A stretch of 64,000 nt of DNA from Marinilabiliaceae bacterium ANBcel2. GTDB lineage: Bacteria; Bacteroidota; Bacteroidia; Bacteroidales; Marinilabiliaceae. This document shows positions 266 through 18,676 of the stretch, one piece after another. Made by a program: the position numbers and the translations under genes. Within the stretch, counting starts at the first letter, position 1. Each line of letters starts with the position of its first letter. The DNA lies in assembly GCA_029688995.1 (NCBI GenBank), contig JARULA010000002.1, positions 186,001 through 250,000 on the forward strand, read 5' to 3'. The notes beneath the pieces were generated by a model that saw only the letters and a program-made list of their open reading frames with translations, ran no database searches and was not told the DNA's origin.

Positions 266-832
266 TCAGTTTCTTCTAATTGTTGATGTTAAAATAAAGA
301 AGGATACCTGTTCATTTAACTCTTTAAACTGGTACGATAATTTACTGCCGGTCTTTTTAGCTATATCAATTAGTCCCAATCCGGCACCTCCTTTTTCAGA
401 CAATGAAGCTTCTCTTATCTGCTGCTTAAACAGATCGGATAATCCCTTTTTATCTAAACTGTTTATTAGCTCAAGAGTTTCTTGAAGTCCTTCAACTCTC
501 TCGTTTTTGATAATGTTACCGGTTATGATTTTATAAGTATCATCCCCTTTACTCACCATTACAATCCCTCTGCGGTCTTCATCATCTTCACTTAGTCCAT
601 CAGCATGTTTACTTATATTTTGTAAACATTCAACCATTACATTAAAAACCTTTTTTTGCACTGTATTTGATTCAGCACTTTTTGAAAGGTTTTTTTCTGT
701 TAATGCTGTAAAAGTTTTTGTAATTTCCTGAGTCACTTCACCCTCATATACAAGACTAATCTCGTTAGTCTTCATTGTTTTATAGAGTTGATAAGCAAAC
801 TCCAGAAAGTTGTGTTTTTCTTTTTCCATCAT
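266..832 (-). CDS. SiaB-family protein kinase (DUF6272, GHKL fold)
   Basis: Predicted 188-residue cytoplasmic kinase of the SiaB family, expected to phosphorylate the SiaC-like protein encoded next. An N-box-like stretch (VECLQNISKHAD) in the first half and a GGAGLGLIDIAKK glycine loop near the C-terminus match the GHKL ATP-binding fold of anti-sigma kinases such as SpoIIAB/RsbW. An upstream in-frame TTG would add four residues (start at 844), but ATG at 832 is more likely; a second ATG follows at once. It lies 38 bases after the SpoIIE phosphatase gene and 16 before the SiaC-like gene, the gene order expected of a phosphatase/kinase/substrate partner switch. There is no membrane segment. Confidence 0.85.
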   Translation of the reverse strand: MMEKEKHNFLEFAYQLYKTMKTNEISLVYEGEVTQEITKTFTALTEKNLSKSAESNTVQKKVFNVMVECLQNISKHADGLSEDDEDRRGIVMVSKGDDTYKIITGNIIKNERVEGLQETLELINSLDKKGLSDLFKQQIREASLSEKGGAGLGLIDIAKKTGSKLSYQFKELNEQVSFFILTSTIRRN

Positions 833-870
833 ATTTTGGTTCAAATAATCAAAATTTTGTGTAAATATAG

Positions 871-3489
871 TTACAATTCAATTCCTATCAATAAAACATC
901 ATCAACTTGTTTTTCGTCACCCATCCATTCATGGAACTCTTTCGAGAATGTACGCGAGTATTGGGCCATACTAATATTATCATCGGCAGTTAAAAGTTCT
1001 CTAATTCTTCTGGGCTGAAACTTTTTTCTTTTTGGCCCACCAATTTGATCAGGTAACCCATCACTAAAAATAAATATTTTATCCTCTTTTTCGTAATTAA
1101 TAACGTGATGTTCAAAATCTTTTTCAACTTTTTTTCGTAATGGGATACCACCAATAGCTTTTCTGCTCCCTTTGTATTCATGCAATTCACCATTTCGTAT
1201 TAAGAACAGGGGGCGGTTTGCGCCTGCAAAATCGAGTGTTTGATTCTTTTTATCTATAATGCATAGTGCTAAATCCATTCCATCTCTTCCTTTTGCTCCT
1301 TCCTGATCCTGTTTTAATGTTATTCTAACGTTTGAGTGCAGGTCATCCAAAATTTTAGCAGCAGACTCATTCTCCTGAGCATTAACAATATTATTTAATA
1401 AGAAGTAGCCGATAAAACTGATTAGTGCTCCCGGAACCCCATGTCCTGTGCAGTCCACTGCTGCAACATATGAGATATCTCCTTTTTGAAAAAACCAGGG
1501 GAAATCACCACTTACCACATCTTTGGGGCGGTAAAAAATGAAAGATCTGGGGAAGTAGTTTTGTATAAGATCTGTGTCGGGTAATATAGATGTTTGAATT
1601 CGTTGTGCGTAGTTTATACTGTCTGATATTTTCTTATTCTTCTCTTTAATATCCTGTTCAATCTTCTTGAACTCTGTCATATCATGCGCTACAAAAAGGA
1701 TTGTTTCCAGCTCTCCTTCTTCTCCCAGTTCCGGGATAGCCTTAATCTCCATTATTCTTTCACCCGATTTTGATAGCATAGTTACCTCAGAGATGGTCTG
1801 TTCCTGTTGCTCTCTTATATCGGTTAAGCTGGTTTCTACATATTTAGTGAATCTTTCATCTATCTCTATATCACTTATTCGTTTTTTTATTAGATCCGAT
1901 GGTCTATCGGCAACAAATTTTGATACTGCCGGATTTACATAAATAAGTTTTCCGGTGAGATTAATTCGCACTATCATATCGGGAGAGTTCTCCGATAAAC
2001 TTTGCATTCTCGATTTCATTCTCTCCTCTTTCTCTGCACGTTTTCTTTCGGTAATATCTTGTGTATTAAATATTATACCGCGAATTGCAGGATCATGAAG
2101 TAAATTTTTTCCTTTTGTTTCGAGAAATAGCTTCTCTCCGTTTTTACGCAGATAGGTATATTGTGCAGTTTTTTCTCCTCCCGGTGTTTCCAGTAGATAT
2201 TGAAACAGTCGGTTTATGGTTTTATAGCCTCTTGGAGTGAGGATATTAGGGTCCATACCTGTTATTTCATCATCATCGCTATATCCTAATATTCGTTTTA
2301 CCGACGGACTCTCAAATAGGAGTTCTTGGCGTTCGTTATAAATTGAGATAAATTCAGATGCGTTGGTGAGTAGCGCTTCAAGACGTTTACGTGAATGAGC
2401 TACTTCCTGAATTTGAGTCTCGAGCATTTTATTAGATTTTTCCAGCTCTTCTTGTGCCTCTATCATCTCCTGCGCATTTTGGCGCAATTGCTCTTCGTTT
2501 TCGCGAAGTGTTGCGGTCATTTTTTGTGACTCTTTAAGCAGCTCCTCGGTACGTGTTGTTATTTTAAGGTTGTAGAGGGTTTGTCCTATTATGGAGCTCA
2601 CCTCGCTTGAAAATGTTAGCTTATATTTGGGTAAAAACTTTTTTAAAAAGGCTATTTCAATTACTCCTTGTAACTCCTCTTCTTGTAAAAGGGGAATAAT
2701 AATAATGCTTTTTGGTTTTTTTTCTCCTAATAATCCTGAGGTTATCGAATAGTAATCATCCGGAATTTCATTGCGATAGATTAGCTCCTTTTCATAAGCA
2801 GCAGCACCTATTAATCCTTTACCAATAGCGATTTCATTATATTCAAATCTTCTGCGGTTATATGCATACATTGCAGATCTTTTAAGCAGATTATCCTTTA
2901 ATATGTAAAAGGCGCCCTGAACACCTCCCATATACCGGATTAGCTCTTTTACAGTGTTTACCGACAACTCTTCAAGGTTATGAGCATTACGAAGAATATT
3001 TGAAATATGCTCTTTTCCTGTTGATATCCAGTGTTGTTGGTCCTCCTTCTCTTTACTCTCCTTAATATTTTCTCCCAGATCAATTAATGTTTGAGCCAGG
3101 GTATCATCTGTTTTTTCTATTTTTTCCCAACTGTTTTGTTTAAGAGCATTGGCCAGTTTAATGTTATGGTCTATTCGCTCTTTAATCTGCTCATAATTAG
3201 AGCGAAGTTTGCTGGTTTTTTCATTGTAGCGATTGATTAGATAGATAACAGCCAGCGGGAATAGTACTATAATTAGATCAACTATTATAACAGGAAAATA
3301 GCTGTGAATTCGCACTATATTCATAAAAGAGAAGTGCATATCCATAAAATTGATAAATCCTGCCCAGGATAACATTAACAAAAGTATTATCCCGATTAAA
3401 AGAGAGTATTTACCATTTAAGGATAATATTTTGAACGAGAGTCGTTGTTTAAGATCTCTTTTTATTTTATTTAAATTGAGTCCGCTCAT
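871..3489 (-). CDS. Membrane SpoIIE/PP2C phosphatase with GAF and two PAS domains (SiaA-like)
   Basis: An 872-residue inner-membrane sensor phosphatase. Order: two N-terminal membrane helices (about residues 28-50 and 56-82), a coiled region, a GAF domain (about 165-320), a long coiled coil (310-380), two PAS domains (about 370-485 and 495-620) and a C-terminal SpoIIE-type PP2C domain (about 640-872). The phosphatase motifs are intact: VVSGDFPWF, the metal-site DCTGHGVPGAL, GMDLALCIID and IFSDGLPDQIG. By position it corresponds to SiaA, dephosphorylating the SiaC-like protein; P. aeruginosa SiaA has a different sensor region, so the signal probably differs. Its GAF domain contains PDDYYSITSGL, a signature shared with two other membrane proteins of the cluster. 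It starts 15 bases after the preceding GAF gene. Confidence 0.88.
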   Translation of the reverse strand: MSGLNLNKIKRDLKQRLSFKILSLNGKYSLLIGIILLLMLSWAGFINFMDMHFSFMNIVRIHSYFPVIIVDLIIVLFPLAVIYLINRYNEKTSKLRSNYEQIKERIDHNIKLANALKQNSWEKIEKTDDTLAQTLIDLGENIKESKEKEDQQHWISTGKEHISNILRNAHNLEELSVNTVKELIRYMGGVQGAFYILKDNLLKRSAMYAYNRRRFEYNEIAIGKGLIGAAAYEKELIYRNEIPDDYYSITSGLLGEKKPKSIIIIPLLQEEELQGVIEIAFLKKFLPKYKLTFSSEVSSIIGQTLYNLKITTRTEELLKESQKMTATLRENEEQLRQNAQEMIEAQEELEKSNKMLETQIQEVAHSRKRLEALLTNASEFISIYNERQELLFESPSVKRILGYSDDDEITGMDPNILTPRGYKTINRLFQYLLETPGGEKTAQYTYLRKNGEKLFLETKGKNLLHDPAIRGIIFNTQDITERKRAEKEERMKSRMQSLSENSPDMIVRINLTGKLIYVNPAVSKFVADRPSDLIKKRISDIEIDERFTKYVETSLTDIREQQEQTISEVTMLSKSGERIMEIKAIPELGEEGELETILFVAHDMTEFKKIEQDIKEKNKKISDSINYAQRIQTSILPDTDLIQNYFPRSFIFYRPKDVVSGDFPWFFQKGDISYVAAVDCTGHGVPGALISFIGYFLLNNIVNAQENESAAKILDDLHSNVRITLKQDQEGAKGRDGMDLALCIIDKKNQTLDFAGANRPLFLIRNGELHEYKGSRKAIGGIPLRKKVEKDFEHHVINYEKEDKIFIFSDGLPDQIGGPKRKKFQPRRIRELLTADDNISMAQYSRTFSKEFHEWMGDEKQVDDVLLIGIEL

Positions 3490-3504: not shown

Positions 3505-4263
3505 TTATAATATTCTGTTTTTGATAATATTTTTTGCTATATCTCCCCACATTTTTACAATATTGCTCTTTTTAAAAGTAAGCAGCTCTATTATAAAGAC
3601 TGTTTTATCATTTTTATTGACAGGCAAAATATATAAACAAGATCCTTTACTTTTACCCAATCCTGATTCGATGGAGAGATAATCCCCGGGTATATCTTCT
3701 ACCTCCATTGGCATTTGATCTTTTGCTGCCTGTCCGCTTAATCCTTCATTATAATTAAAAGTTGGCGGATTATAATCTTCGGGTACTGCATAACTCTCTT
3801 GTACGATAAATTTATTACATTGTTCATCCAATTTGTATAATAGTGCTGCACCTGCTTGAAAAGATTCACATAACAGATGTAAAAAATTGTGATCTCCTCT
3901 TGCTTTAGAGAATAGCTCTTTCAACATTTTATCTCTGTAAGAAGCAAACTTTTTTGATTCGTTTTTCTCTTTTTCGTACTCTTCAAGATTTTTACTTAGT
4001 TGTTCTATCTCGCTTTTATACTTTTCGTCTCTTTTGATAAGCTCTTTTTCCAACTCAGTTATTTGGCTTTTAAGTTTTTTGTTGTTTTTTTCGGCAATCA
4101 AAATTACCCCTAAGAATAAGAGTAGTGCAGTAATGCCTATTATATGATAAAGAGGTGAGGCATCAACGGGAAGAATTATATTGCGTATTAAAAAGAGCAA
4201 ATAGCCTGTTGTTGAAAAAGCTATTAATGTTATTATAAAATTATTATCTCTATTCTTAATCAT
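3505..4263 (-). CDS. Membrane-anchored GAF-domain protein with no output domain
   Basis: A 252-residue protein with two N-terminal membrane helices (about 9-27 and 37-57), a strongly charged coiled coil (60-115) and a GAF-like domain to the C-terminus. The GAF part carries PGDYLSIESGLGKSKG, the same signature as in the SpoIIE phosphatase and the GAF/PAS protein of this cluster. No kinase, phosphatase, receiver or cyclase domain is present, so it may act by dimerising with, or presenting a signal to, one of the neighbouring sensors (inference). Its ATG overlaps the TGA of the upstream CheB-like gene, suggesting coupled translation. No specific function can be assigned. Confidence 0.75.
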   Translation of the reverse strand: MIKNRDNNFIITLIAFSTTGYLLFLIRNIILPVDASPLYHIIGITALLLFLGVILIAEKNNKKLKSQITELEKELIKRDEKYKSEIEQLSKNLEEYEKEKNESKKFASYRDKMLKELFSKARGDHNFLHLLCESFQAGAALLYKLDEQCNKFIVQESYAVPEDYNPPTFNYNEGLSGQAAKDQMPMEVEDIPGDYLSIESGLGKSKGSCLYILPVNKNDKTVFIIELLTFKKSNIVKMWGDIAKNIIKNRIL

Positions 4264-4838
4264 TGAGGCAGGGAGTTTAAGAATTCAACAATTTGATCTG
4301 GTGAGAATACTTTATTGGGTTTAAAAAGTTTTAATGCCTCTTTTGGCATGGTATCAATATCGCATGTAGAAGGATCCTGAATTATTGTAAACCCTCTTTT
4401 ATCGTGTATATCTTTTAATCCTTTAGCCCCGTCTTTATTTGCTCCCGTTAATAAAATCCCTAATATTTTATCACGGTACACATAGGCCGCTGATGATAGT
4501 GTATAATCTATAGATGGTCGGCTATGGTTGTAGCTCTCTTCTGTTGACAGAGAGATGGATCCGTCTATCTCAATAAAAAGGTGATAGTTTGAGGGAGCAA
4601 GATAGACATTATTATAAGACAATTTCTCTTTGTCATTGGGTTCTATTACTTTGATTTTTGATTTTAAACTTAACCCTTCTACAAGTCCGCTTCTCACATG
4701 TTTTAACCTGTGTAGACTCAATATTATTGGAGGCTTAAAGTCGGGACGTATTTTTGACAATATATTAGAGATAACAGAAAAACTTCCCGCTGATCCTCCC
4801 ATTACTATTGCTTTAAAGTAGTGGTTATTATTAGGCAT
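4260..4838 (-). CDS. CheB-type methylesterase domain protein lacking a receiver domain
   Basis: A 192-residue protein consisting only of the CheB C-terminal esterase/deamidase domain. The expected catalytic triad is visible: Ser in VMGGSAGSFSVI, His in LSLHRLKH and Asp in LTGANKDGAKGL; RPSIDYTL matches the RPSVDVLF segment of CheB. With no receiver domain it cannot be switched on by CheA in the usual way. An upstream in-frame start at 4898 would overlap the preceding gene by 68 bases; I chose ATG at 4838 (8-base overlap) because the esterase fold begins right after it. It is paired with a degenerate CheR just upstream, which suggests both act on a target other than the main receptor, or as scaffolds (inference). 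Confidence 0.82.
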   Translation of the reverse strand: MPNNNHYFKAIVMGGSAGSFSVISNILSKIRPDFKPPIILSLHRLKHVRSGLVEGLSLKSKIKVIEPNDKEKLSYNNVYLAPSNYHLFIEIDGSISLSTEESYNHSRPSIDYTLSSAAYVYRDKILGILLTGANKDGAKGLKDIHDKRGFTIIQDPSTCDIDTMPKEALKLFKPNKVFSPDQIVEFLNSLPQ

Positions 4839-5664
4839 AGCTGTTGCTTTGTTTAGGTTGCGGTTTTTTATATATTTTCTCTGAGCTGTCAATTTCAATT
4901 AGATAATCCTTTATGGATTGCGGCAGCTCTTCTTTAATGCCAATAGCAAGGAATCCGCCTGGCATTAATTTGTCAATTAGCTCTTTATATATCTCTTCAG
5001 TTGTTTTGTGATTAAGATAGATAGCTATATTTCTAAATATTATCAGTCCGACATTAGCCTCAGAATCTATATTTGTAAATGAGTTACTAACATTACATTT
5101 TATATTATTTCTGAGCTCTTCTTTTATTGAGACCTCACCATTTTTACTGTTAAAATAGTCTTTAAATAACTCTTTGTTTTCTAATCTTTTGTAGTTTGTT
5201 TGATTTAGATCAAAATGTTTTGGATTTATTTTACCTGTAATTATTTCACTATATTTTGTTTTTGACGGGGTATTACACTCAATTTTAAATGCGCTTAATT
5301 TTTCTGATTCATGTAGAATTACCGATAATGAGAATAGCTCTTCACCAGTTGAAATATGAGGGAGCCATATTGTGTCAGCCTTATCTGGGATTTTGTCTAA
5401 GATATTCGATCTTATTGATCGCCAAAATGCCGGGTCGCGAAACATTTCGGTTACTTCAACACACATATAATCAGTTATGGTTCTACGAACAGTCTCATCC
5501 GATAAAGACTCTATAAAAAGATCTACTTTACGTATCTTTAATTTATCGAATATTAAAGAGAGTCGCCTCTTTAAAAAAGAGATTAAAAAGTTGCTATAAT
5601 CCATTTCCGGATATAGAGCCATAGCTTTTGTTATTTCTTTTATCTCATTAATACCCAAATTCAC
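4831..5664 (-). CDS. Degenerate CheR-like methyltransferase paralogue
   Basis: A 277-residue protein with the full CheR architecture (N-terminal helical domain, then methyltransferase fold) but a decayed cofactor site. Where active CheRs, including the two others in this cluster, have WxAGCSxGxE and TDIS, this one has WLPHISTGEE and CNTP; the late FCRNVLIYF motif reads FRNIAIYLN. VTEMFRDPAFW matches the substrate-side motif of the other copies. Binding of S-adenosylmethionine is therefore doubtful. The start is GTG at 5664; the next ATG (5622) would remove the first helix. It begins 11 bases after the intact CheR gene, consistent with tandem duplication followed by divergence. Confidence 0.78.
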   Translation of the reverse strand: MNLGINEIKEITKAMALYPEMDYSNFLISFLKRRLSLIFDKLKIRKVDLFIESLSDETVRRTITDYMCVEVTEMFRDPAFWRSIRSNILDKIPDKADTIWLPHISTGEELFSLSVILHESEKLSAFKIECNTPSKTKYSEIITGKINPKHFDLNQTNYKRLENKELFKDYFNSKNGEVSIKEELRNNIKCNVSNSFTNIDSEANVGLIIFRNIAIYLNHKTTEEIYKELIDKLMPGGFLAIGIKEELPQSIKDYLIEIDSSEKIYKKPQPKQSNSYA

Positions 5665-8521: not shown

Positions 8522-9598
8522 TTATAGAAACTTTTTTGCCAGATATGGAACAAGCTCTTCTACTCCCATAATCTTTTTAGCTGCTCCAATTTTTATAGCT
8601 TCACGAGGCATTCCAAAAACAACAGATGTCTCTTTATTTTGAGCTATTGTCTCTGCTTTTGCCTCTTTTAATTCCAGCAATCCTTTTGCGCCGTCTGATC
8701 CCATCCCTGTCATTAATATTGCTGTAGCATTTTGACCTGCATATCTTGATGCCGATCTAAATAGTACATCTACCGAGGGGCGGTGGCGGTTTACTAATGG
8801 TCCCTGTTTAATTTCAACGGAATATTCTTTACCGCTTCTTTTGAGTAGCATATGAAAGTTTCCGGGAGCAATTAAAACCCTACCCTGATAGAGCTTATCT
8901 CCGTTTTCTGCCTCTTTTACCTCTAATTTTGAGCTTCTGTTTAAACTGGCTGCAAATGACTTTGTAAACCCTTCGGGCATATGTTGTACAATTGCAATTC
9001 CGGGCATTCTTGGGGGCATAGCGTTTAAAATTTTACGTATTGCCTCAGTTCCTCCTGTAGATGCTCCTATTACAATTATTTTTTCTGTATCCGATATTTT
9101 TGTTTTAGTAACCCCCTTCTCTATAATTATATCGGCAGTATGCTTTGGTATAATTATTTCTGCCGCAGGCGGATTACTTATTTTTAAACGGGATAATTTA
9201 GCTTGTGAGGCAGCTTTAACAGCATCACATAATATGATTTTAGAATCATTAAAAAATTGCGCTGCATTCATTGCCGGTTTACCAATAATTTCTGAAGCTC
9301 CATATTCGAGAGCTTTCATAGCAACCTCTGTTCCTTCCTGTGTTAGTGAAGATATCACTACAACCGGTATAGGATGCTGCGACATTATTTTTCTTAGAAA
9401 TGTTAACCCGTCCATTCTGGGCATCTCTATATCCAGAGTAATCACATCCGGGATCTCTTTCATTATTTTTTTGACAGCAATTAATGGATCGGCCGCAGTC
9501 CCCATTACTTCGATTTGTGGATCTGTCTCTAAAATAGAAGAGAGGCTTTGTCTTACAACGGCTGAATCATCAACTACTAATACCCGGATCTTTTTCAT
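8522..9598 (-). CDS. cheB: Chemotaxis protein-glutamate methylesterase/glutamine deamidase CheB
   Basis: Full-length 358-residue CheB: an N-terminal receiver domain (acidic pair D10/D11, phospho-acceptor D56 in [10 protein letters not shown], and GKP lysine) followed by a linker and the methylesterase domain with Ser180 in IGASTGG, His206 in IVQHMPEGF and Asp302 in GMGSDGA. It demethylates chemoreceptors when phosphorylated by CheA. It follows cheD closely, and the pairing with intact cheR copies gives a complete adaptation system. All catalytic residues are present. Confidence 0.95.
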
Positions 9599-9627: not shown

Positions 9628-10101
9628 TTATACAACCTCTTTTTTGTCTATAAACTTATGACGAACCTCTCCGGTATCGGTAAAAAAGAGAATTTTTCTA
9701 CCTTTTTTACCTCCTGTACTTGATGCTACAACAGGTATTTTTTTATCCTCAAGAATCATCCGGGCTATTCTTATATTTCGTTCTCCAATGAGCATTGAGC
9801 TATTGGTTTGAGAAATAAGATCTCCCCCTCCAAATATTTTAGCCTGCATATTTTCTCTTTTACATCCTAACTGTATCATTTTATCTATTAATTTTTCAAT
9901 TGCTATATTTCCATATTTGGGAGAAGCAAGATCGTTACCATTCCATGTAGGTAACATATAGTGGTTAATACCACCTATTTTTGCTTTTTTATCCCATAGG
10001 CATATAGCAACACAGGAACCCAGTATAGTTTTTACCATATATGGTTCTCTGTTTGTGAATAGAGTAGAAGGATATAAAAAGTGTTGTAAATATTGATTCA
10101 T
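9628..10101 (-). CDS. cheD: Chemoreceptor glutamine deamidase CheD
   Basis: A 157-residue CheD. The family catalytic Cys is C30 in TILGSCVAICLWD and the conserved His is H47 in GGINHYML; KIFGGGDL is another family motif. CheD deamidates receptor glutamines and in many bacteria is regulated by CheC; no cheC, cheX or cheZ gene is present in this window, so how CheY-P is removed and how CheD is regulated are open. It sits directly between the kinase-like gene and cheB. Confidence 0.93.
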   Translation of the reverse strand: MNQYLQHFLYPSTLFTNREPYMVKTILGSCVAICLWDKKAKIGGINHYMLPTWNGNDLASPKYGNIAIEKLIDKMIQLGCKRENMQAKIFGGGDLISQTNSSMLIGERNIRIARMILEDKKIPVVASSTGGKKGRKILFFTDTGEVRHKFIDKKEVV

Positions 10102-10112
10102 TTAGCAATTCC

Positions 10113-11012
10113 TTAAAAAATCTCATCATCATCATCGAAGAAAATATCGTTTCCTTCTCCGCTAAATCCGTCAACAACATTTTTAGCTTCAGGAATGGTG
10201 ATACGGAATGTTGATCCTTCACCTTTTTTACTATCAATCTCTATTGTACCTCCCAGTACATCGAGTAGAGCCTTGGTTATAGATAGCCCTAATCCATGTC
10301 CTCTGTTGATAGAGTTAATACCTGAATCTAATCTTTTAAATCTCTCAAAGATGATTTTTTGATTTTTCTCAGAAATACCAGTTCCAAAATCCTGAACTGA
10401 AATATATAGTGCTTCCTCATCAGCTGTTACAGAAATGATAACTTTACTATCTTTAAAACTATACTTTAAAGCATTGTTAAGCATATTACTTAAGATAAGC
10501 TTAACTTTTTCACTATCTGTTTTAAAATAGAAGTTTTTACCAAAACCATACTCAATATCATAGTTGAAAACAATATTGATTCCCATTTTTCTTGCGATAA
10601 GATGAAATGAGTCGGTAAGTGTTTGCACTATATTTCTAATGTTGACTTTTGCTATGTTTGGAACTACTTCGCCCGCTTCAATTTTTGCGGCTACAAAAAT
10701 GTTTTTTAGCTGAAAGTCAAGATTGAAGGCCTCACTGTGGATTAGAGCCACCATTGACACTACCTTTTTCCAATCATTTTTTTCTACCGAAAGTATTGAT
10801 TTTGATAATCCCAGTATCGATGTAAAAGGATTAACTATTTCATTAGAAATATTGGAAATAAAGTGACTTTTGAGAGCTTCAGATTCTTTAAACCTTTTAG
10901 TAACGTCCTGTAGCTCCTGAGTGAGCAGTTTTATCTCCTGCTCATTTTTTTTGCGTTCCTGGAGTCGTTCTCTGATCTCCTTTAAAAGTTGTCTGTCCGA
11001 AAGCTTCGTCAT
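10113..11012 (-). CDS. Histidine-kinase-like protein with the phospho-acceptor His replaced by Asn
   Basis: A 299-residue soluble protein: an N-terminal coiled coil (about 1-45), a HisKA-like dimerisation region (45-115) and a complete GHKL ATPase domain. ATP-site motifs are present: NMLNNALKYSF (N box), VQDFGTGIS (G1), FERFKR (F box) and GHGLGLSITKAL (G2). In the H box, where active kinases read SHExRTP, this protein reads SNEIVNP, so the phosphorylated His is Asn57; H50 lies seven residues earlier on the wrong turn. It thus should not autophosphorylate normally. There is no sensor or receiver domain. The position inside a chemotaxis operon suggests an ATP-dependent scaffold, or a kinase acting on the STAS or Hpt protein (inference). 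Confidence 0.8.
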   Translation of the reverse strand: MTKLSDRQLLKEIRERLQERKKNEQEIKLLTQELQDVTKRFKESEALKSHFISNISNEIVNPFTSILGLSKSILSVEKNDWKKVVSMVALIHSEAFNLDFQLKNIFVAAKIEAGEVVPNIAKVNIRNIVQTLTDSFHLIARKMGINIVFNYDIEYGFGKNFYFKTDSEKVKLILSNMLNNALKYSFKDSKVIISVTADEEALYISVQDFGTGISEKNQKIIFERFKRLDSGINSINRGHGLGLSITKALLDVLGGTIEIDSKKGEGSTFRITIPEAKNVVDGFSGEGNDIFFDDDDEIF

Positions 11013-11048: not shown

Positions 11049-11915
11049 TTATAATTTCTCAAATATTGTTGGCTTAATATGCTTTAAAGGTACATCCATA
11101 GCTGAAAGAGACTCGGAATGACCAATAAAAAAATATCCTCCCTTTTTTAAATTCATACATAATCTATTTATTACTTTTTCCTGTGTTTCTCTGTCAAAAT
11201 AGATTAGTACGTTTCTACAAAAAATAGTGTCAAACTCTTTAGACATTCCATAGTGGTTGTCCATTAAGTTTAAATAATCATATGTTATGTTTCGTTGTAG
11301 AAATGGACTTACTTTTATTGTTTGGTTCTCTTTATCCTTACTTTTAAGGAAATATCTCTTTTTTAAATCCATTGAAACTGCCTCTGCTTTTTTTAAATTA
11401 TAAACACCTCTTGCTGCAGTTTTAAGCATTTTGGTTGAGATATCGGTTCCCAATAATTTAAAGGTAAAACCACTGTTTAACCTCTCAAACTCATTTAATA
11501 CTATTGATATAGTATAAGGCTCTTCGCCACTTGAACATCCGGCGCTCCACACTTCAAATGTTTTTCCCGGATTGTTTTTATAAAATTGTGGTAACACCGT
11601 TTCATTTAAAAATGCAAAATGAACAGGTTCCCTAAAAAAATCAGTTTTATTGGTTGTTACTACATTTAAAAAATGTAATAGTTCATTTTGTTGTCCCTCT
11701 TTACTAAAAAAGAAATCCTTGTATTCACTGTAGGATCTCATTTTAAGTTCTCTTATTCTTTTTAATAGCCTCCCTTGTAGCATTATACGTTTAATAGGAG
11801 GCATTTTAATTCCATATCGTGAATAGATATATTTACTGAATGCCTGAAAATCTTTTTCTGACAACTCTGCTCTAAAACATTCCAGTCCGCCTTCATTATT
11901 TTTATAATTCTCCAT
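11049..11915 (-). CDS. cheR: Chemotaxis methyltransferase CheR (first copy)
   Basis: A 288-residue CheR with all expected motifs: the N-terminal domain with GRLLKRIREL, TNKTDFFREP, the cofactor loop WSAGCSSGEEPYT, GTDIS, FCRNVLIYFDRETQ and the terminal GHSESL. It methylates receptor glutamates and lies directly after the two cheW genes, so it is the likely main adaptation methyltransferase for the receptor at the head of the operon. That receptor ends in an NWETF-like tail, which would tether this enzyme if its beta-subdomain binds it (inference). Confidence 0.93.
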   Translation of the reverse strand: MENYKNNEGGLECFRAELSEKDFQAFSKYIYSRYGIKMPPIKRIMLQGRLLKRIRELKMRSYSEYKDFFFSKEGQQNELLHFLNVVTTNKTDFFREPVHFAFLNETVLPQFYKNNPGKTFEVWSAGCSSGEEPYTISIVLNEFERLNSGFTFKLLGTDISTKMLKTAARGVYNLKKAEAVSMDLKKRYFLKSKDKENQTIKVSPFLQRNITYDYLNLMDNHYGMSKEFDTIFCRNVLIYFDRETQEKVINRLCMNLKKGGYFFIGHSESLSAMDVPLKHIKPTIFEKL

Positions 11916-12927: not shown

Positions 12928-14973
12928 TTACGATACTGCTTTCTTCCTCTTTCTTCTGTATAAAAGTCGCGATGTATCTATTACCAAAGAGATAGAACCA
13001 TCGCCCATAATTGATGCGCCTGAAATAATCTCCTGTTTTCTTATATGTTTACCGAGAGGTTTTACTACTGTTTGATATTCACCTATAATACTGTCAACAA
13101 TTAATCCGCTCTTTCTCTCTTCTGATTTAATTAAGATCATCTGCACTGTATCATTCTGCTCCACATCTTTCACATTAAATGTTTTACGCAGGTCAATAAA
13201 TGGTATCTGCTCATCATCTAAAATAACAACACTGTTAAACGACTCTTTTATTTGAGATTTTTCAAGTGCATAAATTTTTTCAATTGCAGTTATAGGAATT
13301 ACATATTGATTTTTATCTACCTTCACTAATAATCCGTCTATTATAGATAGTGTCATTGGTAAACGGATTGTTGTTACTGTTCCATTACCCTTTTCAGAGT
13401 CAATGGTAACCTCTCCTCTTATATCTGCTATTTTGCGGCGCACAACATCCATTCCCACGCCTCTTCCCGACACATCAGAAACCTCATCTTTTGTGCTAAA
13501 CCCGCTTACAAAGAGAAGATTTAGTACCTCTTTATTTTCGAGCTGGCTATTTTGATCTATTATCTCTTTTTCTATAGCTTTTTTTCTTATAAATTCAGGA
13601 TCAAGACCTTTACCATCATCTGAGATCTCTATTACTACATTAGCACCTGAATAGTAGGCTTTAAAAATGATAGTTCCTTTAGGGGGTTTTCCCGATGAAA
13701 TTCTCTCTTTTGGAGATTCAATTCCATGATCGATCGAATTTCTAAATATATGAAGAAGGGGATCTGTAAGGTGCTCAATAATATTTTTATCCAGCTCTAA
13801 ATCTCCACCCTCTATTACAAATTCAATCTCTTTCTCCTGCTCTTTTGAGAGATCTCTTACTAATCTTTGAAATCTCATCAATTCTGTTTGCAGGGGTATC
13901 AGACTAATATCAAAGGCATTTTCTCTTAACTGACGGGACAGTTTTTGCACCCCTTCGGTTAAGGTTAATATTGCAGGATCCTCTTTTTGCTCGGCGTAAA
14001 GGCTAAGTTGTGCCTGAATTGTAACCAGCTCACTGACAAGAGTTACCAGTTCATCAATTTTATGAGAGGCTACCCTTATACTGGAAATTTTATTATCTTT
14101 TATAGCAATTTTTTTCTTTGCCTGCTTCTCTTGTTTATCTTCTTTTTTCCAGACTTGCGTAGTGAAATTCTCTTTCGAAATTAATGTATTTGTTGAAAGA
14201 GATTCGGCAACCATATCTGATATCTCTTTTTTGTTAACTATATTTATATCTGCAACTTTTTCGATATTAAGGTCGCACTCATCTTCAACAAATATAAATA
14301 CGTCTTTAATTTCATTAAGAGACTCTGTTGTGGATAAAATTACTTGCCATATGCAATAGCTGGCTGTTGGATCTAATATTTCTGTTGATGGTATTTTGTG
14401 TGTAAAAGCGATTGTTTTAGCATCACCCAGTGCATGTAAATCATCCAAAAGGTACAATGGGTTTGTTCCGTTTTGGAGCAGATCTTTTTCGGGAATTATT
14501 GTTATTAAATATGTGCTTGATTCTTCTGTACTATCCTTACCCTTCTCTTCGTATATTTGATCTGTTTCATTTTTTACTTTTTCCTCTAAAGTAGATCCTT
14601 TTGAAAAGGAGTTTATTTTTTCTATAAAATCATTATGCTCTTTTAACTCATCGGTATCTGTTAAATCCCCTTTTTTGAGAAGGAAATTTATTTGATCAAT
14701 AGCAGAAAAAGTTAAGGTTATAAGATCAGAGGTGACCTCGATTTGATTGTTTCTCACCGAATCAAATACTGCTTCAAGATGGTGGGTTAAGTCACTTAAA
14801 TGATTAAAGCCAAACATAGCTCCTCCACCTTTCAGAGAATGCATAGCTCTGAAAATACGTTCAATAAGATCTCTATTTTTCATATCATTTTCTAAAAGAA
14901 GCAGAGCTTCTTCAAGATCTTGAACGTTATCTTTTGACTCCTCTACAAATTTAGCTTTAAACTTATCTATCAT
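12928..14973 (-). CDS. cheA: Chemotaxis histidine kinase CheA
   Basis: A 681-residue CheA. Domains: P1/Hpt (1-110) with the phospho-acceptor His45 in AMHSLKGGGAMFGF; a linker and a P2-like alpha/beta domain (about 155-250, with LYLLDDLHALGDAK); the dimerisation domain P3 (about 300-370); the P4 ATPase with FRNSIDHGIE, ISDDGKGLDP and SGRGVGMDVV; and the P5 CheW-like domain to the end. All catalytic motifs look intact. It phosphorylates the CheY-like protein and CheB encoded beside it; the free Hpt protein just upstream may be a further phosphorelay partner. Confidence 0.95.
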   Translation of the reverse strand: MIDKFKAKFVEESKDNVQDLEEALLLLENDMKNRDLIERIFRAMHSLKGGGAMFGFNHLSDLTHHLEAVFDSVRNNQIEVTSDLITLTFSAIDQINFLLKKGDLTDTDELKEHNDFIEKINSFSKGSTLEEKVKNETDQIYEEKGKDSTEESSTYLITIIPEKDLLQNGTNPLYLLDDLHALGDAKTIAFTHKIPSTEILDPTASYCIWQVILSTTESLNEIKDVFIFVEDECDLNIEKVADINIVNKKEISDMVAESLSTNTLISKENFTTQVWKKEDKQEKQAKKKIAIKDNKISSIRVASHKIDELVTLVSELVTIQAQLSLYAEQKEDPAILTLTEGVQKLSRQLRENAFDISLIPLQTELMRFQRLVRDLSKEQEKEIEFVIEGGDLELDKNIIEHLTDPLLHIFRNSIDHGIESPKERISSGKPPKGTIIFKAYYSGANVVIEISDDGKGLDPEFIRKKAIEKEIIDQNSQLENKEVLNLLFVSGFSTKDEVSDVSGRGVGMDVVRRKIADIRGEVTIDSEKGNGTVTTIRLPMTLSIIDGLLVKVDKNQYVIPITAIEKIYALEKSQIKESFNSVVILDDEQIPFIDLRKTFNVKDVEQNDTVQMILIKSEERKSGLIVDSIIGEYQTVVKPLGKHIRKQEIISGASIMGDGSISLVIDTSRLLYRRKRKKAVS

Positions 14974-15015: not shown

Positions 15016-15336
15016 TTAATCTAATTTATTCTCTTTGTTAAAACTCTCTATTAACAGGTCTATTGTTCTTTTTGTTTGATTTACAATTTGAGGTGTTAAT
15101 TCCCTCTGACCTCCTTTTATGTCGTAAAATGTCTTCTCCAGCTTTTTTGAAATTTTTGATGTTGTTTCAAACCCCAACATTGGTCCGGTTCCCGAAATAT
15201 GATGAGATACAGAAAATATTTTTTCGCTCAGATGAGGAACTTTTGGACTATAAGAATTATCTGAGAGTTCTCGACTTATACTTTCGAGCTCCTTTATAGT
15301 TTCTGTGTAAAACTGTTTTTTTATTTCATCAAGCAT
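15016..15336 (-). CDS. Stand-alone Hpt-domain protein
   Basis: A 106-residue all-helical protein resembling the CheA P1 domain next door. The Hpt motif HxLKG appears as SHHISGTGPMLGF, so the likely phospho-acceptor is His45, but the usual Lys three residues later is Ser. TSKISKKLEKTF resembles CheA's SDLTHHLEAVF segment. A role as a phosphate carrier or sink between CheA, CheY and other receivers is plausible; loss of the Lys could reduce phosphotransfer. It sits 8 bases after cheY and 42 before cheA. Confidence 0.72.
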   Translation of the reverse strand: MLDEIKKQFYTETIKELESISRELSDNSYSPKVPHLSEKIFSVSHHISGTGPMLGFETTSKISKKLEKTFYDIKGGQRELTPQIVNQTKRTIDLLIESFNKENKLD

Positions 15337-15344
15337 AAAATGGG

Positions 15345-15710
15345 TTATCTTAATACTCTTGAAATTGCTGATAGCAGTTTTGCCGGTACAAATGGCTTAA
15401 TAATCCATCCGGTTGCACCTGCCTCTTTTGCTTCCATCTTTTTAGAGGCTTGTGACTCAGTTGTTAAAAACAGAATTGGGATATGCTTATAATTATCCAT
15501 TTCTCTAACTTTGCGAATTAGTCCGAGTCCATCAAGATTGGGCATATGAAGGTCGGTAATAATAATATCAAGATGACGTCCGTCTAGAAATTTAAGTGCA
15601 TCATCACCATCTACACCAACTAAAACTTCGTATCCTTCATTTTGCAGTGTAAAATTTACTACCTCGCGGATACTTTCAGAATCATCTACTATAAGAACGG
15701 TTTTTGCCAT
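15345..15710 (-). CDS. cheY: CheY-type single-domain response regulator
   Basis: A 121-residue receiver domain with the acidic pair D9/D10, phospho-acceptor D53 in IITDLHMPNLDG, the conserved Thr in FLTTESQ and the Lys of IIKPF. It has no output domain. CheA should phosphorylate it. No flagellar switch gene is nearby, so its target is unknown; gliding machinery or another regulator are candidates (inference). It lies between the STAS-protein gene and the Hpt-protein gene. Confidence 0.9.
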   Translation of the reverse strand: MAKTVLIVDDSESIREVVNFTLQNEGYEVLVGVDGDDALKFLDGRHLDIIITDLHMPNLDGLGLIRKVREMDNYKHIPILFLTTESQASKKMEAKEAGATGWIIKPFVPAKLLSAISRVLR

Positions 15711-15723
15711 AGTCTTATACGGT

Positions 15724-16047
15724 TTAATTGTTTTTGTTTTGATTTAATAGTTTGCCAAATCCGGCATTTATAATTAATGATTTTAAATCTTCGGAAACAT
15801 CCATTTTTGTCTCCACCTCATATCCTTTTTTACCCCCTTGGTTAATTATTGAGTGGATCAGTTGTAAAAAGGTTAGGTCTATATTTTCAGCATCTGCAAC
15901 CATAATATTGATTTTTTCAGGATCATTAATATGATTTTTTACACTCTCGGTTATTTTATCAATTGAGTTGATGGTCAGCTGTCCACTAAACTTCATATTG
16001 AGAATGTTTCCCTCTTCTTTGTAATCTATATTATAATTATCGGTCAT
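15724..16047 (-). CDS. STAS-domain protein (anti-sigma-antagonist-like)
   Basis: A 107-residue single STAS domain, the fold of SpoIIAA/RsbV. Strand-helix pattern and ILNMKFSGQLTINSIDKI, INIMVADAENIDLTFLQLI and GKKGYEVETK fit the family. Where SpoIIAA has the phosphorylated Ser in DSSGL, this protein has IDLTFL, leaving a Thr as the possible site. It is placed between the chemoreceptor and cheY, and the same operon ends in GHKL kinase and PP2C phosphatase genes, the usual partners of STAS proteins. It could be a second substrate of that switch (inference). Confidence 0.75.
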   Translation of the reverse strand: MTDNYNIDYKEEGNILNMKFSGQLTINSIDKITESVKNHINDPEKINIMVADAENIDLTFLQLIHSIINQGGKKGYEVETKMDVSEDLKSLIINAGFGKLLNQNKNN

Positions 16048-17914: not shown

Positions 17915-18442
17915 TTATAATACTATTGCAGCTGACATTCCTTCAAGTCTAGAGCTAAACTGCAGCCCCATCCATGCTGCATTACCCTGGTGTAATTCAA
18001 ATCGTAATGTGTTATCACGTATTACAAAATTGATTGCTGCTCCATGATCGGTAGCATTGTCTGCCTCTGATATTATCAGACTGTTGCTTTCTCTTGCTTT
18101 TTCAATTAATGTCTCTGATTCTCTTCTTATATTAATTCTGGAGCCTACATAAATAAGCTGGCACTCTTCTATCTCATCAACAGAGCTGTATTCTCTTACA
18201 ACAACATCCTGAAATCCAAATTTTTTCCCTTCAGATTGCTCTCTTAAATTGTTGGCAACGTTACTGTTTCGAATGACTCCTATTACAAAATCGCCTTCAA
18301 GTGAACTGTCGGGCCATCCAATATAACGTAAAAAGTTAAGTGTAAAAACAGCTTTGTATTCATCAACCTGTGCCTGTGCTTGTATGCTATTATTAAATAG
18401 CGGCAGCATAATTAATAAAGTTGCAAATAGAATTTTTTTCAT
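17915..18442 (-). CDS. YfiR-family periplasmic protein (DUF4154)
   Basis: A 175-residue exported protein with a clear signal peptide (MKKILFATLLIMLPLF, cleavage after the QAQA region) and the DUF4154 pattern: VDEYKAVFTLNFLRYIGWP, FVIGVIRNS, and late FVIRDNTLRFELH with AAWMGLQFSSRL. The ATG at 18442 is preceded by GAGGG; an upstream start would bury the signal peptide. YfiR in Pseudomonas restrains the diguanylate cyclase YfiN from the periplasm. The disulfide Cys pairs of Pseudomonas YfiR are absent; the mature part shows one Cys. It precedes the receptor gene by 117 bases on the same strand and may be its periplasmic partner (inference). Confidence 0.8.
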   Translation of the reverse strand: MKKILFATLLIMLPLFNNSIQAQAQVDEYKAVFTLNFLRYIGWPDSSLEGDFVIGVIRNSNVANNLREQSEGKKFGFQDVVVREYSSVDEIEECQLIYVGSRINIRRESETLIEKARESNSLIISEADNATDHGAAINFVIRDNTLRFELHQGNAAWMGLQFSSRLEGMSAAIVL

Positions 18443-18477
18443 AGTACCCTCTTTTCTTTTTATACCTTGAATTACGC

Positions 18478-18494
18478 ACCAAATTAATTTTGGT
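18478..18494. promoter_or_regulatory. Inverted repeat upstream of the YfiR-like gene
   Basis: ACCAAA and TTTGGT flank a 5-base spacer, about 36 bases before the start of the signalling cluster's first gene. It could be an operator for the cluster. A 6-base AT-rich repeat can occur by chance in DNA of this composition. Confidence 0.25.
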
Positions 18495-18676
18495 TTCTTT
18501 TTTTTATATAAAAGCATAAAATTATAATTTTTAGCCAAACTATTTAATTGTTTTGTTGATCTTATTTAATTCTATTTATTTTTTTTTAATCCTCCTAATC
18601 TTTTACATCGTTACAATCACTGTTATTTTCTTTAAATTCGCATGCTTCATATTATTTATATAATTAGTATTTTTTT

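Follow-up and report, generated by a model that had tools for sequence, protein, structure and literature searches.

The window, i.e. the whole stretch of 64,000 nucleotides that was analysed, carries a chemotaxis gene cluster on the minus strand in the order MCP, STAS, CheY, Hpt, CheA, two CheW, CheR, NHK, CheD and CheB. NHK, a name coined here, is the open reading frame (ORF) at 10113-11012 (minus strand). It encodes a kinase-like protein of 299 amino acids with a DHp and a HATPase_c domain, from which the phospho-acceptor His is absent. CheR (11049-11915, minus strand) is located immediately upstream of NHK, and CheD (9628-10101, minus strand) immediately downstream. CheB (8522-9598, minus strand) was assigned by domain match and combines a receiver with a methylesterase domain. 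The expected phosphate donor is CheA (12928-14973, minus strand), with Hpt, dimerisation, HATPase_c and CheW domains. A standalone Hpt protein (15016-15336, minus strand) and a STAS protein (15724-16047, minus strand) were assigned by their Pfam domains, and a CheY-type single receiver domain (15345-15710, minus strand) is the proposed substrate of NHK. Past CheB, the cluster continues with a GAF-PAS protein, two further CheR-domain proteins and a CheB-methylesterase-domain protein, and it ends with a weakly GAF-like protein, a PAS/SpoIIE-phosphatase protein and a SiaB-family protein.

The SiaB-family kinase gene is located at 266-844 (NF038262, 174.6 bits, cut-off 85), and its product had a median identity of 76.9% in 35 loci. 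The PAS/SpoIIE phosphatase beside it (the pair spanning 266-3489) has a SiaA-like C-terminus, with a score of 172.3 bits that is under the cut-off. Together with the STAS gene, these two genes possibly form a partner-switching module coupled to chemotaxis. The second CheB-methylesterase-domain protein (4260-4898) lacks a receiver, and its ORF overlaps a CheR-domain ORF (4831-5664). A YfiR/HmsC-like (DUF4154) protein is encoded after the MCP gene at 17915-18538, an arrangement shared by many other loci. In locus L104, an ORF of 598 amino acids (1617-3410) to which no Pfam family matched lies ahead of STAS-CheY-CheA, and ORFs of about 600 amino acids occupy the equivalent position in L088 and L105.

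Homologous loci were collected in two sets. The first was obtained by a species-level scan with one genome per species, which provided loci from 80 of 146 relatives, the remaining 66 being unseen. The second came from an even draw of the order, in which NHK was found in 88 of 393 genomes and 56 of 207 genera; 80 of the 90 NHK matches were examined as a second pool, and the other ten were already among the orthologue rows. The two pools, which overlap in some organisms, comprised 161 NHK rows, of which 159 cover the H box (150 distinct sequences). The term order is used as in the genome tool; NCBI places Marinilabilia in Marinilabiliales.

In the first 80 loci, CheR was located directly upstream of NHK in 77 and CheD directly downstream in 79, the exceptions being contig ends. 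Among the 80 loci of the second set, the closest gene of a type present in the window was CheR upstream in 67 and CheD downstream in 75. Three of the five loci without CheD lack room for it, and two, belonging to one family, have none there. In L286, an intact NHK is followed by an NAD-kinase gene where CheD would stand. In L277 (1860-2724), NHK is broken into two overlapping frames, and a gene similar to that of L286 but no CheD is found downstream. CheY was the best conserved protein of the cluster, with a median identity to the window of 91.7% in 59 loci, followed in the same loci by NHK (77.9%), CheB (77.0%), CheD (73.0%) and CheR (66.7%). The corresponding values were 60.1% for CheA (58 loci), 35.6% for STAS (57 loci) and 31.4% for Hpt (33 loci).

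Domain organization and predicted structure of NHK

In NHK, an N-terminal helix precedes a DHp-type helical domain; a HATPase_c domain comes next, and an acidic/aromatic tail closes the protein. The HATPase_c domain (PF02518) was recognized with an E-value of 1.6e-25 (90.2 bits) and was also present in 56 of 56 members checked, and HATPase_c_2 matched just at its cut-off (27.4 bits). The Pfam HisKA family scored 18.4 bits on residues 48-114, which is below the cut-off of 26.9 bits; a weak HisKA match (E<=1) was obtained with 54 of the 56 members. Neither PAS domains nor the CheC/CheX families (PF04509, PF13690) gave a Pfam match to NHK at E<=10, and the CheZ family PF04344 gave no Pfam match either. 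A kinase-like protein with Asn in place of the phospho-histidine had been proposed by an earlier, sequence-only reading; the ORF, the H box and the HATPase_c match confirm this description.

The C-terminal tail (residues 281-299; 10116-10172, minus strand) is predicted to be disordered (pLDDT <50). Many homologues retain its consensus, approximately DGN[ED]-hydrophobic-F[DG]xDE[IL]F, and in others the tail is shorter or different; the final Phe was present in 81 of 81 rows of the first pool, but in only 49 of 80 of the second. The tail could serve as a short motif to which CheY or CheD binds. It may resemble the C-terminus of CheZ or the N-terminus of FliM.

An AlphaFold model of NHK was calculated with 56 sequences and had a mean pLDDT of 78.6, with values below 50 for residues 223-239 and 281-299. 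The closest fold match was DivL (PDB 4q20; Z 24.0, rmsd 3.7, 229 residues), followed one Z unit lower by HK853-RR468 complexes (Z up to 23.0), in a comparison limited to chains preselected with Foldseek, by which families outside the preselection could be missed. The modelled fold is that of a kinase core, and a phosphatase and a non-catalytic reader would be indistinguishable by it. To our knowledge, few pseudo-histidine kinases have a known logic, DivL being the model case.

Residues of the H box and the ATP-binding site

The H box of NHK reads ISNEIVNP, with Asn57 at the acceptor site, Glu58, and Asn61 at position H+4, followed by Pro62. The codons of residues 57-62, read from the sequence, span 10827-10844 (minus strand), with Asn57 at 10842-10844, Asn61 at 10830-10832 and Pro62 at 10827-10829. 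All four residues were found in 28 of 28 orthologues (28 of 41 relatives; 42-100% identity) and in 81 of 81 rows of the first pool (window plus 80 loci, from 80 of 146 relatives). In the pooled set, Asn57, Asn61 and Pro62 were each present in 159 of 159 rows and Glu58 in 158, with one Gln. Ordinary kinases served as controls. Among the other kinase stretches of this genome, all 26 have His at the acceptor site, a few of them being one kinase counted twice from overlapping loci, and the same holds for all 31 best other kinases of the order and the phylum. Position H+4 of the 26 own-genome stretches was Thr in 22 and Asn in none. Since both Asn residues are conserved in the homologues and the controls all carry His, they appear to be derived and fixed. 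In a phylogenetic tree, 149 NHKs formed one clade against 53 ordinary kinases, with a support of only 0.604. Replacement of the acceptor His by Asn implies that neither autophosphorylation nor phosphotransfer proceeds from that site.

The sequence-only reading had called for an alignment of orthologues, in which His at position 57 was to speak for a recent mutation; none of the 159 covering rows has it. A recent mutation, a sequencing error or a decaying pseudogene would find parallels in the frame fault of L277 and in the internal stops flagged in 3 of the 90 matches of the order draw. However, with Asn57 in every covering row and the gene spread over the order as given above, such an origin of Asn57 is practically ruled out.

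Another residue might have taken over autophosphorylation, for example His50 (codon 10863-10865), located two helix turns ahead of Asn57. His50 was present in 81 of 81 rows of the first pool, and none of 57 ordinary kinase stretches has His at the equivalent position. Across the 159 rows, however, 149 have His at position 50, and the other 10 have Asn there while keeping both Asn57 and Asn61. No acidic residue follows His50. A relocated acceptor at this position was therefore rejected, and autophosphorylation elsewhere in NHK is considered very improbable.

The N, G1, F and G2 boxes of NHK were all recognizable by eye, so that the ATP-binding motifs remain, as had been claimed from the sequence. 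The N box comprises residues 174-186 (10455-10493, minus strand), with Asn176 and Asn180 both present in 161 of 161 rows. The G1 box comprises residues 204-216 (Asp208, Gly210, Gly212; 10365-10403, minus strand), and the G2 box, placed by homologue alignment, residues 234-246 (10275-10313, minus strand). The N box, Arg224 and the G2 box were retained in nearly all 161 rows. The G1 box was degraded in 7 homologues, six with D208N (all of which also lack Gly212) and one with G212D, and all 7 retain Asn57-Glu-x-x-Asn61. Decay of G1 with both Asn residues retained indicates that the ATP site is less constrained than the DHp motif. Conversely, the near-invariance of Glu58 and the retention of the N box, Arg224 and G2 make it probable that ATP binding is important in most species. 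In bifunctional kinases, nucleotide acts as a phosphatase cofactor. By analogy, it is perhaps a phosphatase cofactor of NHK as well. ATP-dependent scaffolding by NHK is also possible.

These retained residues would fit a kinase that acts in trans on the standalone Hpt protein, the P1 domain of CheA or the STAS protein. Genes for Hpt and STAS are part of the window's cluster, and a split kinase pair, CheA4/CheA3, is described for R. sphaeroides. Against this stand the degraded G1 boxes, the complete CheA in the same cluster and the variability of the partners. A standalone Hpt, defined as an ORF less than four times as long as the Hpt of the window so that divergent copies could escape, was undetected in 22 of 62 NHK loci showing the region; in L088, L104, L105 and L108, the gap between cheY and cheA is too small for it. 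At position 59 of the STAS protein (Thr59 in the window), 59 of 63 rows have Thr or Ser and 4 have Ala, and the four loci with Ala retain Asn57 and Asn61 in NHK. Hpt and the STAS Thr were therefore rejected as obligatory partner and substrate, and NHK appears to depend on neither. A kinase in trans is thus regarded as improbable. Of the suggestions made from the sequence alone, phosphorylation of STAS or Hpt is disfavoured, and a changed role inside the che operon is supported.

Distribution of NHK and the partner slot of CheD

The named NHK-bearing relatives were Marinilabiliaceae and MAGs titled Bacteroidales. Three loci (L100, L103 and L110) were titled Chitinophaga, Spirochaetaceae and Chlorobi; all are on short MAG contigs, and their out-group titles were taken for misbinning. 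Among 395 genomes of the phylum, the best NHK match besides the window's own (497.4 bits) did not exceed 176.5 bits, and a spread of NHK beyond the order was therefore rejected. No literature on NHK was found among the titles and abstract starts of open-licence PMC papers.

Cys30 and His47 were present in 155 of 155 NHK-associated CheDs. CheC, CheX, CheZ and the FliM/FliN C-domain were each found in none of 41 relatives, 28 of which carry NHK, while control genomes were positive. With the FliM/FliN C-domain undetected in these 41 relatives, CheY~P probably acts on a target other than a flagellar motor. CheD was present in 29 of the 41, namely the 28 NHK genomes and G036, in which it adjoins a His-bearing kinase. 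Another 33 of the 395 phylum genomes carry CheD, none with an NHK-level match. The resulting 34 NHK-less CheD genomes were searched for CheX and CheC. CheX was found in 22 (one call sits under the cut-off), 14 of which have CheC as well; of the 22 CheX genomes, 19 have a copy no more than 1.1 kb away from cheD. CheX or CheC thus occurred in 0 of 28 NHK genomes versus 22 of 34 NHK-less CheD genomes, with a nominal Fisher P of 1.7e-8 that treats related genomes as independent, most CheX genomes being of one family. The slot can also be empty, since 12 of the 34 have neither NHK nor CheX nor CheC.

The CheD interface was compared at one position, tentatively equated with F102 of B. subtilis by means of a motif. 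It was hydrophobic in 153 of 155 NHK-associated CheDs (two gaps) and Lys or Arg in 22 of 32 CheDs from genomes lacking NHK.

Proposed role and comparison with known systems

NHK carries Asn at H+4 and adjoins cheD in genomes in which CheC, CheX and CheZ were not detected; these features point to a role in dephosphorylating or reading CheY~P. It is proposed, at even chances, that NHK is a kinase-dead HisKA-type CheY~P phosphatase which occupies the place of CheC/CheX beside CheD. The dimeric DHp bundle would bind CheY~P in the way in which HisKA kinases engage their regulators, and Asn61 would position a water molecule for attack on the aspartyl phosphate, as suggested by HisKA mutants. Nucleotide in the CA domain would act as an allosteric cofactor, and the usual retention of the ATP site would be accounted for in this way. 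The neighbouring CheD might, more speculatively, bind NHK and tie the CheY~P level to receptor control, like the Bacillus pair CheC-CheD; CheC is described as the partner of CheD in B. subtilis (PMC3513319).

The proposal relies on mutants described in PMC3510030. According to this source, the acidic residue after His serves only the kinase activity of the HisKA kinases tested, and Thr or Asn at H+4 only the phosphatase activity; in CrdS, the H+4 residue Asn375 is required solely for the latter. The half-life of CrdA~P was shortened there from 53.5 to 2.6 min by CrdS-H371A, compared with 0.7 min for the wild type. Together with these mutants, a phosphatase is supported by the fixed Asn57 and Asn61, the decay of G1, the adjacency of CheD and the fact that CheC, CheX and CheZ were not found in the 41 relatives, whereas CheX commonly adjoins cheD in the NHK-less genomes. 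The conservation values, with CheY highest and NHK next, and the closeness of the model to the HK853-RR468 complexes count on the same side. PleC-H610A loses both activities (PMC3510030), so that His matters in some enzymes. Further points against a phosphatase are the DivL precedent, the near-invariance of the kinase-type Glu58, the kept ATP boxes, the empty CheD slots elsewhere and the two loci of one family in which NHK has no CheD downstream.

The main rival explanation, which is given a distinctly smaller but still substantial chance, is a DivL-like pseudo-kinase that binds CheY~P without dephosphorylating it and relays this signal, in the simplest case by CheY~P-dependent capture of the adjoining CheD, like a CheC devoid of catalysis. 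DivL, the top structural match, has Tyr at the acceptor site and binds DivK~P, being neither kinase nor phosphatase as described in PMC4211667. It is likewise a kinase core whose non-His acceptor residue is conserved among its homologues. In B. subtilis, binding between CheC and CheD is reported to outweigh the phosphatase activity of CheC (PMC3513319), which also favours a reader, as does the adjacency of CheD. However, such a reader leaves the fixed Asn at H+4 (0 of 26 in the other own-genome kinase stretches) unexplained, and likewise the removal of CheY~P in the 41 relatives in which CheC, CheX and CheZ were not found. Furthermore, DivL has PAS domains, binds ATP weakly and acts on CckA (PMC4211667), whereas NHK, which is encoded in a che cluster, has no PAS match, carries Asn instead of Tyr and retains ATP boxes that are mostly intact.

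The wider version of the phosphatase proposal is more doubtful: that across the order, in bacteria in which no flagellar switch protein was detected, chemotaxis signalling is terminated by a phosphatase that arose from a histidine kinase through fixation of Asn at the acceptor site and at H+4, replaced the unrelated CheC, CheX and CheZ and took over the partnership of CheC with CheD. If the phosphatase proposal is true, the two halves of a histidine kinase, phosphatase and kinase, would have been separated naturally and order-wide, and chemotaxis reset would be explained in bacteria without detected CheC, CheX, CheZ and FliM/FliN. CheD would gain a partner other than CheC, and a new way to build a chemotaxis off-switch would be recognized. 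The proteins involved are small and apparently soluble, which makes the proposal testable. The annotation 'sensor histidine kinase' in such che clusters is misleading for NHK genes.

Several known systems share single traits with NHK. The GHKL serine kinases of the RsbW/SpoIIAB/SiaB type are GHKL ATPases encoded near a STAS gene, as is NHK, but NHK has a DHp helical domain, and the cluster has a separate SiaB-family gene. CheA3 of R. sphaeroides, a species without CheZ, is a kinase-related protein described to dephosphorylate a CheY~P (PMC2924250). Its Hpt domain can be phosphorylated, and it acts together with CheA4, whereas NHK is of the HisKA type, lacks the acceptor His and is encoded beside a complete CheA. 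CheC and CheX occupy the same kind of place near cheD, and the spacing of Glu58-x-x-Asn61 equals that of the ExxN motif of CheX (PMC3510030); their fold is unrelated and they gave no Pfam match. The bifunctional HisKA kinases HK853, CrdS and NtrB share with NHK the DHp and CA core, Glu at H+1 and Pro at H+5, and their phosphatase residue, Thr or Asn at H+4, stands in the same place as Asn61 (PMC3510030). Unlike them, NHK has lost the kinase half together with the acceptor His. If the phosphatase proposal is correct, NHK mirrors in nature the laboratory mutants in which His was dispensable and Asn at H+4 essential.
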